Positions 221-6,053 of a DNA stretch of 64,000 nt are shown here, piece by piece. Source of the DNA: Desulfobacula sp. (GTDB lineage Bacteria > Desulfobacterota > Desulfobacteria > Desulfobacterales > Desulfobacteraceae); the NCBI RefSeq assembly GCF_030611305.1, contig NZ_JAUWQB010000001.1:1-64000 (forward strand). The letters run 5' to 3'. Made by a program: the position numbers and the translations under genes. The stretch's first letter is position 1. Each line of letters begins with the position of its first letter. The notes under the pieces were generated by a model that was not told where the DNA came from, ran no database searches, and worked only from the letters and a program-made list of their open reading frames with translations.

Positions 221-236
221 TGGCATCAAGTATGCA
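221..236 (+). promoter_or_regulatory. Candidate sigma-54 promoter
   Basis: TGGCATCAAGTATGCA has the invariant GG (222-223) and GC (234-235) exactly ten bases apart, with a full TGGCA at -24 and one mismatch (ATGC for TTGC) at -12. Start of transcription would fall near 246-248. No protein gene follows it; a strong terminator does, at 311-354. Confidence 0.55.
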
Positions 237-246
237 ATAGTGTTTT

Positions 247-354
247 TCAGTTATCAGATAAAGTATGCATTTACTTACCTCCAGAATCTGAATAACCACC
301 TCACCGTCATCCGGGGCAGCTTAAATACCGCCAGTAGCTGCCCCGGATTTTTTT
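247..354 (+). ncRNA. Candidate sigma-54-dependent small RNA
   Basis: This stretch lies between a sigma-54-type promoter and a factor-independent terminator and holds no credible reading frame. The terminator is an 11-bp perfect stem (311-321 with 336-346) followed by seven T, oriented for the plus strand only. The predicted RNA is about 108 nt. Its unpaired 5' part contains TTACCTCC and CACCTC, which resemble anti-Shine-Dalgarno sequences; TTACCTCC is an exact complement of the ribosome binding site in front of the LivK-like gene starting at 28981. It lies just beyond the 3' end of the convergent sigma-54 activator. RNA, function and targets are inferred. Confidence 0.5.
311..354 (+). terminator. 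Strong intrinsic terminator of the candidate sRNA
   Basis: CCGGGGCAGCT at 311-321 pairs with AGCTGCCCCGG at 336-346 across a 14-base loop, and ATTTTTTT follows. There is no T-run on the other strand, so it serves plus-strand transcription. No plus-strand protein gene precedes it. Between here and the next gene end at 569 (355-568) I see nothing but AT-rich sequence. Confidence 0.75.
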
Positions 355-2257: not shown

Positions 2258-2572
2258 ATGAGTAAACTTAATAAATATATGATGGTTCATAACAGCCCTG
2301 GAATTAATTGTGACGAAATTCAGGCCAATTGGAGAAAACTGGCTGAAGTTGAAGCCGGCACATGGATAAGAACATATTTCAATGAAGAAAAAGGGGTTCG
2401 TTATTGTATCTGGATGGCACAAAGTGAAGAAGATTTAAAAAATATTTTTACAGAAATCGGCATCAGCTGGGATTCCATTATACAGGTTGAAGAGACTGTT
2501 CCCGATCTTTGGGGCGAAAAGTGGAATGAGCACCTTGAGAAAGACGCCGTGGCTGATACCCTTGGTAACTGA
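2258..2572 (+). CDS. Small DUF4242-like protein
   Basis: A 104-residue soluble protein without signal peptide or membrane segment. The middle part (about residues 45-80: a GVRYCIWMAQSEEDLKNI stretch followed by a strand ending IIQVEE) resembles the DUF4242 ferredoxin-like fold, a family that includes a structurally studied nickel-binding protein; this resemblance is from memory and moderate. I placed the start at 2258 because AAGGAG at 2245-2250 gives a seven-base spacing; frames beginning earlier are poorly supported. It is the first gene behind the sigma-54-type promoter and is followed by an unknown small gene, a DUF1638 gene and a flavin reductase. Its role in that set is unknown. Confidence 0.7.
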   Translation: MSKLNKYMMVHNSPGINCDEIQANWRKLAEVEAGTWIRTYFNEEKGVRYCIWMAQSEEDLKNIFTEIGISWDSIIQVEETVPDLWGEKWNEHLEKDAVADTLGN

Positions 2573-2671
2573 TGTTGAATATATGAAGTGTGGGCAGCAA
2601 TTATTTGTGCCCGCACTTTAACCCATCGATTTTTAAGACAAACCATCGTGCAAAAATAAGGAGACCGGCTT

Positions 2672-2935
2672 ATGTATGCTTTAATTTATGATGATCATAA
2701 CCTGGACCAATCTCAAAAAAAAGTTATCTCAGCTCATGGAACCAGGGATGAATCAGACAAGGCTCTGATACAAAGACAAAACGAACTTGGAAGAAAAGTC
2801 TATGAGTGTAATACTCGCATTGTCTGGACAGATAAAGCTGTGGCTGCTAATGATGTGCTTGAAACAGGCGAATTTGTAACCTGGCATCCCTATGAAGATA
2901 TCCCTGAAGGTGAATTAAACAGTGATTCGGATTAA
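2672..2935 (+). CDS. Small hypothetical protein
   Basis: An 87-residue acidic protein that I do not recognise. It has no signal peptide and no membrane segment. One cysteine sits near the middle (YECNTRIVW), and the C-terminus is rich in Glu, Asp and Ser. A ribosome binding site (AAGGAGA) precedes the ATG at good spacing. It lies 99 bp after the DUF4242-like gene and 22 bp before the DUF1638 gene on the same strand, so it most likely belongs to the same sigma-54-controlled operon. The charge pattern suggests a soluble cytoplasmic protein; no function can be given. Confidence 0.7.
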   Translation: MYALIYDDHNLDQSQKKVISAHGTRDESDKALIQRQNELGRKVYECNTRIVWTDKAVAANDVLETGEFVTWHPYEDIPEGELNSDSD

Positions 2936-2957
2936 TTATGTTATTTAGGAGGTTATC

Positions 2958-3620
2958 GTGGGAGAACAATCATTTAGTGATACTGCAATAGTGGCCTGTG
3001 GAACCATGAGCCCTGAAATGAACCATCTTGTAAAAGAAGGATTTCTTGATACCCGGCATATTTTTTATACAACACCCGGGCTTCACCAGGATATTCCTGA
3101 ACTTGAAACTCAGCTCATAAAATTTATAGAGAAAGCCAAGGCCGTTGCCACTGGTGTGATTGTTGTCTATGGCGGCAAGTATTGCTATGTCAATCCGGAC
3201 AATCCAACCCGGTTAATGCAGACAATTATCGAGGAACAAGGGTTGAAAGTTGTCAGAATTGAGGCCACACACTGCATGGGAATGCTTGCCAGTGATGATG
3301 AGATGAAACAGATAACAAATGAAGTTGCCGGCGGCGAACCGGTCTGGTTTATGACACCGGGCTGGGTTAAATATCGAAAACAGGTGTTCAATGGGTGGGA
3401 TAAAGCCATAGCCAATGAAAATTTTCCGAGACATACAGGGGGTGCTGTTGTTCTTGATGGTATTGGATACCTGGATCAATATATGGATGAAGACCCGGAG
3501 GGATTTCTTGAATATTGTGACTGGATGGGGATTCCCATGCAACCCTATCCCATAACCCTGGACCGGTTTAAGGGTCTGCTTATGGATCAATTGAAAGTAT
3601 TGAAAAATAAAACAATATAA
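2958..3620 (+). CDS. DUF1638 family protein
   Basis: A 220-residue protein matching the DUF1638 family in layout: an N-terminal TAIVACGTMSPEM stretch, VVYGGKYCYVNP near the middle, EATHCMGML and a C-terminal GVVLD/YPITLDR-like part. The family has no established biochemical function. From general knowledge, its members often sit near corrinoid-dependent methyltransferases and RACo/RamA-type reactivators. The start is a GTG with an excellent AGGAGG upstream. Several conserved Cys and His residues (the CGT, YCY and HCMG positions) could bind a metal or cofactor. No methyltransferase or corrinoid protein gene is in the window, although two RACo-like genes are. Third gene of the sigma-54-type operon. 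Confidence 0.85.
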   Translation: MGEQSFSDTAIVACGTMSPEMNHLVKEGFLDTRHIFYTTPGLHQDIPELETQLIKFIEKAKAVATGVIVVYGGKYCYVNPDNPTRLMQTIIEEQGLKVVRIEATHCMGMLASDDEMKQITNEVAGGEPVWFMTPGWVKYRKQVFNGWDKAIANENFPRHTGGAVVLDGIGYLDQYMDEDPEGFLEYCDWMGIPMQPYPITLDRFKGLLMDQLKVLKNKTI

Positions 3621-3688
3621 TTTACCATGCCATTGCATGTACGCCTAATTCTATTTAAAACAGGTATACAAATAAAAACGGAGATCGT

Positions 3689-5029
3689 ATGAAATTTGTG
3701 ATTATCGGTGGTGATGCCGCAGGCATGAGTGCCGCAAGCAGGGCAAAAAGAAAAAATCCGGATATTGATATTATTGTGTTAGAGCAGACCCATGATGTTT
3801 CTTACAGTGCCTGTGGTATGCCCTATAACATTGCTGACCCCCAAAGGGATATGGAAAGGCTTGTTGTAAGAAAGGCTGAAGTGTTTATTGAAAAAAACAA
3901 GATAAATCTTCTGACGGGCCATAGAGTTACGGCCATAGACCATGCAGCCAAAAAAGTATCTGGAATCACGATTGAAGGAGAGCAGTTCAGTTTTGATTAT
4001 GATAAGCTGTTTATTGCAACGGGTGCCTCTCCAGTGATTCCCGACCTGCCGGGATTTGATTTGCCCCAGGTGATGTCCTTAAAAAGCCTTGAGCAGGGCA
4101 AACAGATAAAAGATTATATCCAGCAGAACAGGATCAAAAAAGCGGTAATTATCGGGATGGGATATATAGCGCTTGAAATGTGTGAAGCCTTTGAGAAAAG
4201 AGGTGTAAAAGTGAGTATGGTTAAGCCGGGACCGGTTTTTTTACCCTGGCTGTCCCCCGGCCTCGCAGATGTCATTTACGAGGAGCTGATTCATAAGGGT
4301 GTTGATATCTATTCAGGGCATGCCATTCAGAAAATTGAACCCCTGGGTAATGGTGTTCGGGTTGTATGTACAAATTTGACTTTAGATGCAGATATGGTCC
4401 TTGTGGCAATGGGGGTAAAACCCTGTAGTGGAATGGCAGAAGAAGCCGGTCTTGACCTGGGAATTTCAGATTCCATAGCTGTGGACAGGTATTTAAAAAC
4501 ATCAGATAAAGATATTTATGCGGCAGGAGACTGTGCTGATGCCTATCATATAGTGACGGATCAAAAATGCTGGATTCCTCTGGCATTAATAGCTAACAGG
4601 GCAGGGTGGGCCGTTGCCGATAATGTTACCGGGACTCACACGCGCCTTCAAGGTATTGCCGGGACATCTGTCTTTAAAGTTTTTTCCCTTGAGGTTGCCA
4701 GATCCGGTTTAAATTTTAAAGAGGCGATAGACGCAGGATTTGATCCTGTAGAAAACAGCGTTAAAACAAGATCCCGGGCTCATGGACACCCGGGATCAAC
4801 ACCGATTCATATCAATATGGTTGCAGACAAAAAGACCGGCCGCCTGCTGGGGGCTCAGATGGTGGGAAAAGAAGGAGTCGCCCACAGGATTAATGCTGTT
4901 GCTGTTGCTTTGCACAATAAAATGACGGTTGAGGATTTTTCTCAGACAGATCTGGCCTATGCACCACCTTTTGGACCGGTTTGGGATCCTTTGTTAACTG
5001 CCGCTAACCAGTTGGTAAAGAAAATATAG
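3689..5029 (+). CDS. FAD-dependent CoA-disulfide reductase / NADH oxidase-like protein
   Basis: A 446-residue pyridine nucleotide-disulfide oxidoreductase. The N-terminal FAD fold starts with VIIGGDAAGMSAA. It is followed by SYSACGMPY, whose single cysteine (C42) is the redox residue typical of CoA-disulfide reductases, NADH oxidases and NADH peroxidases. An NAD-binding fold follows (about 150-180, IIGMGYIALEM), then the FAD-binding IYAAGDCAD motif near 275, and a C-terminal dimerisation domain. Length is normal for the family. It would use NAD(P)H to reduce a disulfide, persulfide, peroxide or oxygen; which one cannot be told from sequence. It is the last gene of the sigma-54-type operon and ends 25 bp from the convergent desulfhydrase gene. 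Confidence 0.88.
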   Translation: MKFVIIGGDAAGMSAASRAKRKNPDIDIIVLEQTHDVSYSACGMPYNIADPQRDMERLVVRKAEVFIEKNKINLLTGHRVTAIDHAAKKVSGITIEGEQFSFDYDKLFIATGASPVIPDLPGFDLPQVMSLKSLEQGKQIKDYIQQNRIKKAVIIGMGYIALEMCEAFEKRGVKVSMVKPGPVFLPWLSPGLADVIYEELIHKGVDIYSGHAIQKIEPLGNGVRVVCTNLTLDADMVLVAMGVKPCSGMAEEAGLDLGISDSIAVDRYLKTSDKDIYAAGDCADAYHIVTDQKCWIPLALIANRAGWAVADNVTGTHTRLQGIAGTSVFKVFSLEVARSGLNFKEAIDAGFDPVENSVKTRSRAHGHPGSTPIHINMVADKKTGRLLGAQMVGKEGVAHRINAVAVALHNKMTVEDFSQTDLAYAPPFGPVWDPLLTAANQLVKKI

Positions 5030-5054: not shown

Positions 5055-6053
5055 TTATCCAAATGCCCTGTGGCACTGATCTGCCCATGCAAATAACTCA
5101 GGTGTGCCGCCCGTATGCCAGAACAACACTGTTTGGTCGTTTGTGAAATAGCCTTTTTGAATAAGGTCTATAAAACCGCCCATGGCCCGGGCCGTGTACA
5201 CGGGTCCCAAAAGGATTCCTTCATGATGTGCGAGATCTTTGATAGCATTGAATTCCAAATCCCCGGGCATGGCATATCCCGCCCCCAGATAGTCACAGTT
5301 AAGAGAAAAATCCGATTCCGTCATCCGGATATCAGACCCGATTCTTTCAGCAGTGGCATTGGTAATTTGGGTCAGGACAGGCGGAAAAGGATCAGGGCCG
5401 GTCTTGATCTGGTCAATGCTGATTCCCAGGATTTCGCCGTTGAATCCGGTGATTTTTCCCCCCAGAGTCAATCCTGCCTGTGTGCCTCCAGAACTGGTTG
5501 CAAATACAATGGCATCTGGTATAAACCCCATATCATTCATCTGGTTGGCAAGTTCCAGCATGGCACTAACATAGCCTACAGATCCGGTGCTGTTTGAGCC
5601 ACCCACAGGAATCACATAGGGTTTCTTTCCGGCTGTTTCCAATTCGTCCGCCACCTGGAACAGTCTCTCATCCCTATCTTTTCTGTCGCAAAAATGAACC
5701 TTGGCCCCGAAAATTTTATCCAGCAAAAGATTTCCATTGGGGACTTCAGGTTCAGTGCCGTTTAACACCAGATGGCAGTCAAGACCGGCCTTTCTTGCAG
5801 CAGCAGCAGTCAAACGGCAATGATTGGACTGTATCCCGCCGGCAGTGACCAGAGTGTCTTTCTGCTGTTCTAATGCTTCTCCAATGAGAAATTCAAGTTT
5901 CCGGGTTTTATTTCCCCCCATGCCCAGGGAGGTAAGATCATCCCGCTTCATGTAGATAGCAGGCCCTTGATATTTTTTGGTAAGAAAGTCAAGATATTGA
6001 ATTGGAGTTGGAAATTCGGCCAGATGAAATCTGGGCAGGGTATCTAATTTCAT
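5055..6053 (-). CDS. dcyD: D-cysteine desulfhydrase / ACC deaminase family PLP enzyme
   Basis: A 332-residue PLP-dependent fold-type II enzyme. GGNKTRKLEFL near the N-terminus supplies the Schiff-base lysine (about K49), and TAGGIQSNHCR binds substrate and cofactor phosphate. TSSGGTQAGL near 190 is another family block. D-cysteine desulfhydrase (D-cysteine to pyruvate, sulfide and ammonia) is the likeliest activity. ACC deaminase or a related D-amino acid ammonia-lyase is possible, since sequence alone separates these poorly. It is the last gene of a minus-strand operon after a complete polar amino acid ABC transporter; E. coli dcyD is likewise linked to a cystine transporter. The operon suggests uptake and deamination of an amino acid. 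Confidence 0.82.
   Translation of the reverse strand: MKLDTLPRFHLAEFPTPIQYLDFLTKKYQGPAIYMKRDDLTSLGMGGNKTRKLEFLIGEALEQQKDTLVTAGGIQSNHCRLTAAAARKAGLDCHLVLNGTEPEVPNGNLLLDKIFGAKVHFCDRKDRDERLFQVADELETAGKKPYVIPVGGSNSTGSVGYVSAMLELANQMNDMGFIPDAIVFATSSGGTQAGLTLGGKITGFNGEILGISIDQIKTGPDPFPPVLTQITNATAERIGSDIRMTESDFSLNCDYLGAGYAMPGDLEFNAIKDLAHHEGILLGPVYTARAMGGFIDLIQKGYFTNDQTVLFWHTGGTPELFAWADQCHRAFG

Follow-up and report, generated by a model that had tools for sequence, protein, structure and literature searches.

The stretch of DNA analysed here (the window) comprises 64,000 nt at the start of a Desulfobacula sp. contig and carries a predicted plus-strand transcription unit near its left end. A sigma-54 (−24/−12) promoter, TGGCATCAAGTATGCA, occupies positions 221–236, and its GG/GC spacing fits that promoter type. 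The small RNA (sRNA) gene lies at 247–354; its 5' end is predicted at ~247, about 12 nt past the −12 GC, an estimate as to the exact position, and its 3' end falls in a U-run. Hairpin 1 (250–296; stem arms GTTATCAGAT and ATCTGAATAAC), defined by fold and covariation, presents the antisense element CATTTACTTACCTCC (268–282) in its loop. It is followed by a single-stranded linker, AACCACCTCACCG (294–306), a second anti-Shine-Dalgarno-like motif that is kept in most Desulfobacula and Desulfospira members and lost in genus g34. The unit closes with an intrinsic terminator (309–354) of the form CCGGGGCAGCT-(14-nt loop)-AGCTGCCCCGG-T7, with a 13-bp G+C-rich stem, which a consensus terminator scanner overlooked because its loops are limited to 8 nt. 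The original prediction had proposed a sigma-54-type promoter and a strong terminator enclosing about 108 nt without a reading frame, and these features are borne out. It had also placed TTACCTCC and CACCTC in the RNA, where both are found; the RNA has three C-rich unpaired motifs in all. A terminator-loop motif, TACCGCC (326–332), is kept in most members, even those that lack the linker.

Coding explanations for the region were considered and set aside. The 70-aa TTG open reading frame at 198–410 is mechanical, with no conserved reading frame, and the ATG at 265, which could start a small peptide, is lost in relatives. On the minus strand, GGAGGTAAGTAAATG can also be read as a ribosome-binding site plus start codon; the resulting frame has only 7 codons, is not conserved, and is opposed by the orientation of the promoter and the terminator. 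No plasmid match was found.

The RNA folds far better than expected for its composition (247–355; z = −5.5, with none of the shuffles equally good). A blastn search with 205–360 gave matches at 82–93% identity in ten congeneric genomes and in one from a different genus of the family, and three blocks of the alignment are conserved: promoter, loop and terminator. A covariance search of the region had been suggested with the original prediction. We built a covariance model (R1) on the RNA alone and ran it against 390 genomes of the order. Matches were found in 36 of these, 32 of them Desulfobacteraceae, including every strong match; the window's own RNA scored E 3e-27. The four weak matches outside the family (E 0.002–0.03) were taken as noise, and an Archaeoglobus pattern match (L036) was rejected, being without hairpins and resembling the start of an unrelated opposite-strand gene. 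In an alignment of 30 sequences, pairing is kept in 95.7% of cells and double-sided changes are seen at 19 of the 22 pairs, a level approached by none of 500 shuffles and by none of the slid controls; the alignment was fitted to the model and so somewhat favours the structure. Double-sided compensatory changes affect 8/10 pairs of hairpin 1, and covariation extends to 11/12 pairs of the terminator hairpin. Comparison with Rfam gave no family above the gathering score, and the RNA family is new to that collection. Judged by sequence and conservation, 221–354 is a genuine sRNA gene, and the RNA is conserved across Desulfobacula-type sulfate-reducing bacteria.

The window as a whole holds four sites of the sigma-54 promoter type, so a lone match could be due to chance. 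We judge the promoter at 221–236 to be real because it is conserved in related loci. The motif TGGYAY-N5-NTGC stands 27–41 nt 5' of the conserved loop in 28 of the 29 loci located by a covariance model from which the promoter had been left out; the exception (L113) has the near-match CGGCAC-N5-ATGC. RpoN is encoded in the genome. Promoter and terminator are thus both conserved in relatives, the loss of which the original prediction had named as grounds for abandoning it; the U-run is absent only in g34.

The probable regulator of this promoter is encoded next to it. The gene at 569–1972 on the minus strand encodes a sigma-54 enhancer-binding protein (EBP) with PAS and AAA+ domains (Pfam), a GAFTGA motif and a Fis-type HTH, in agreement with the sigma-54 activator originally noted there, and this EBP is likely the activator of the sRNA. 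In six genera an EBP gene adjoins the sRNA or is found close to it. These proteins are 82–93% identical in close relatives and 33–46% identical in others, where the gene may encode a different but related EBP. Four PAS-domain cysteines are invariant in nine EBPs near the sRNA, which hints at possible redox or metal sensing. A search of 38 genomes for Hfq produced nothing above cut-off, with positive controls detected.

A perfect dyad, GTTAC-N12-GTAAC, occurs upstream of the sRNA in 8 of the 29 loci, and the gap of 12 stands out among the gaps of 6–18 tested between the two half-sites. Seven dyad-bearing genomes were searched: in six, the dyad is found only upstream of the sRNA; in the seventh, one further copy lies within an ABC permease gene. 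The half-sites are like the CbrB subsites at Pseudomonas crcZ, TGTTAC and GTAAC (PMC6296734). The window genome is missing the dyad and has unrelated sequence at the contig end instead. Its first ~125 bases could not be aligned with relatives; they contain GTTACTC and GAGTAAC arms separated by 21 nt, so its own activator site is uncertain. Positions 1–125 contain a long inverted repeat (9–75) and a hairpin (104–122) in place of the putative activator sites of relatives.

A linked gene cluster follows at 2258–5029 (+; Pfam), encoding a SCO4226-like protein, an 87-aa protein that matches nothing in Pfam or NCBIfam, a DUF1638 protein and a CoA-disulfide-reductase-like protein. The last three (2672–5029 in the window) recur: one or another of their genes adjoins the sRNA in other genera too, in g34 immediately on its 3' side. 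A gene at 5055–6053 encodes a PLP enzyme nearest to the D-cysteate sulfo-lyase CuyA model, below its cut-off, and adjoins an amino-acid ABC transporter; organosulfur use is a possibility.

The arrangement differs in g34, where the promoter and both hairpins are found 30–100 nt 5' of MYALIYDD, DUF1638 or OsmC-like genes (loci L114, L115, L117, L119, L120, L122, L124 and L126). The terminator hairpin is kept in these modules and the U-run is gone, and in this genus the module seems to serve as the leader of an operon. A second covariance-model match is present in some g34 genomes. The free Desulfobacula sRNA and the g34 leader probably share an ancestor, since they have the same module and neighbour genes in common, and the antisense loop is the constant element between them.

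The exact 15-nt complement of the loop element CATTTACTTACCTCC, GGAGGTAAGTAAATG, has one other copy in the 3.57 Mb genome. That copy (G000:C149:49399-49413, minus strand) covers the Shine-Dalgarno sequence, spacer and ATG of dsrA, a gene identified from the sequence of its translation, with 78–98% identical proteins in 26 other genomes. Loop and dsrA start are complementary over 15/15 nt. Chance would give 0.012 exact spacer matches among the GGAGG-N7-ATG sites of the genome, or 0.07 if G-U pairs are allowed. Pairing with dsrA has a net energy of −14.0 kcal/mol, against −4.3 ± 2.7 kcal/mol for random stretches.

The loop is nearly invariant across genera, and the dsrA start site is identical in the 37 Desulfobacteraceae genomes read; one genome from beyond the family has GGAGGTAAAACATG at this place. 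The site is also identical in genomes in which the sRNA was not detected, such as the single-contig G007, so it must be conserved for other reasons too and its conservation alone is not proof of an interaction. The dsrA leader TGTAAATTAACTTTTAACGGAGGTAAGTAAATGGC is likewise nearly invariant across Desulfobacteraceae with or without the sRNA (L072-L099, L152-L165), suggesting a further constraint on that leader. What counts for the putative interaction is that distant members keep the whole 14-nt block, including the complement of the spacer, while their other unpaired parts have changed. The loop variants of G034 and G012 convert A-U to G-U and therefore keep the pairing with dsrA, and those of G377 (one mismatch), G386 (a one-base deletion) and G020 weaken it. 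True co-variation of loop and target was not seen in this set, in which the target is invariant in 37 genomes and loop variants are few. Because the loop is an exact complement of the dsrA start codon together with its ribosome-binding site, we propose that the sRNA probably restrains dissimilatory sulfite reductase.

The original prediction had pointed to livK instead. Its observation that the RNA contains an exact complement of the livK ribosome-binding site is literally correct, over 8 nt (GGAGGTAA). As a target livK was rejected: the match is short, its net pairing (−6.1 kcal/mol) is near background, and dsrA matches far better. A broader reading, in which the RNA targets Shine-Dalgarno sequences at several places or in general (livK, the L044 gene, strong ribosome-binding sites) and dsrA is merely the longest match, appeals to the three C-rich unpaired motifs and to the capacity of CCUCC to meet about a hundred GGAGG-N7-ATG sites. 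It also draws on L044, where the start of a gene for a 234-aa hypothetical protein (G000:C64:4943-4957) pairs 15/15 with the loop, with one G-U. We consider this reading rather unlikely, since conservation spans the full 14-nt block, far past CCUCC, and L044 is the only other site in the genome within 0–1 mismatches of the loop complement. Nor did the TACCGCC terminator loop yield a second antisense site: it has exact complements in two genomes, none a convincing gene-start site. The L044 gene is itself preceded by an inverted-repeat sequence resembling an integron attC site.

The leader arrangement in g34, close before MYALIYDD, DUF1638 and OsmC genes and without a U-run, would also suit an RNA that acts in cis on the DUF1638 operon, as an attenuator- or riboswitch-like 5' leader, and of which the free sRNA is a by-product. 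This seems improbable to us, because in Desulfospira, as in the window genome and its close relatives, the RNA closes with a terminator at a distance from the operon, the gene downstream varies but the loop does not, and pairing of the RNA with those gene starts is poor in the window genome. The sign of regulation on dsrA is something we infer, and in a third reading the RNA would not block translation: it would activate the dsrA mRNA or shield it, or would titrate a protein. We give this very little weight. Pairing across a Shine-Dalgarno sequence and AUG normally occludes the 30S subunit, repeated GGA motifs of the CsrA type are absent from the RNA sequence, and Hfq was not detected.

The model we favour is therefore an activator-switched, Hfq-independent antisense RNA that would block dsrAB translation, to which we assign a probability of roughly 0.6. 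The activated EBP would bind GTTAC/GTAAC sites about 90–165 nt upstream and drive RpoN-polymerase at 221–236, giving an RNA of ~108 nt with its 3' end at the intrinsic terminator. Hairpin 1 would then present CAUUUACUUACCUCC, with the unpaired ACCUCC as seed, and a 15-bp pairing with the Shine-Dalgarno sequence, spacer and AUG of the dsrA mRNA would keep ribosomes off and lower DsrAB synthesis. Hfq would apparently be dispensable for this action, and the inducing signal may be redox or sulfur, as the PAS-domain cysteines hint. The core of the original prediction, a sigma-54-dependent sRNA beside its probable activator and bearing anti-Shine-Dalgarno loops, is supported by conservation and activator linkage. 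We see even odds for the fuller proposition that a dedicated, Hfq-independent sigma-54/EBP-sRNA circuit shuts off DsrAB synthesis and that, in the g34 leader, one transcript would induce another function and repress dsrAB.

DsrAB catalyses the last step of sulfate respiration, and dissimilatory sulfite reductase is its central enzyme. If the model holds, the RNA would be a brake on this terminal enzyme that acts post-transcriptionally, with a bearing on when sulfate reducers lower sulfite reduction and on the reading of dsrAB transcripts as a proxy for activity. We found no RNA regulator of dsrAB, and no RNA-level control of it, in the open-access papers that our searches covered. The predicted switch is specific, in that the activator, its site, the RNA and a 15-bp target are all named, and can be tested in cultured species such as Desulfospira joergensenii.

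Systems of this kind are already known, namely EBP-driven sRNAs (Qrr1, CrcZ), anti-Shine-Dalgarno/anti-AUG csRNAs and the sigma-54 ncRNAs of D. vulgaris. The Qrr sRNAs are Hfq-dependent and target quorum regulators, whereas the predicted target here is a respiratory enzyme and Hfq was not detected. Like the window RNA as predicted, Qrr1 of Vibrio is a sigma-54 sRNA under an EBP with upstream sites, a trans-acting RNA switched by LuxO (SypG) (PMC10162802); the two have no sequence relation (no Rfam match). CrcZ/CrcY of Pseudomonas are likewise EBP-driven regulatory RNAs, controlled by CbrB through TGTTAC/GTAAC subsites (PMC6296734), but CrcZ sequesters a protein, while the window RNA appears built for pairing with an mRNA start. 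In the sulfate reducer Desulfovibrio vulgaris Hildenborough, the sigma-54 regulome includes four ncRNAs predicted under EBPs, some directly beside the EBP gene (PMC4641369), a similar linkage to that seen here. The main text of that study gives no dsr target for them, and the EBPs concerned are mostly two-component response regulators (PMC4641369). In architecture the window RNA resembles the CiaRH csRNAs of Streptococcus, which are short, with two hairpins and unpaired anti-Shine-Dalgarno and anti-AUG sequence (PMC3091779). The csRNAs are CiaR-regulated in Streptococcus and not sigma-54-dependent, and the window RNA, with its sigma-54 promoter in Desulfobacteraceae, lies outside that class; its phylum, its sequence and its targets are also different. 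In the csRNAs the anti-start sequence is placed between the stems, and here it is in the loop of hairpin 1.
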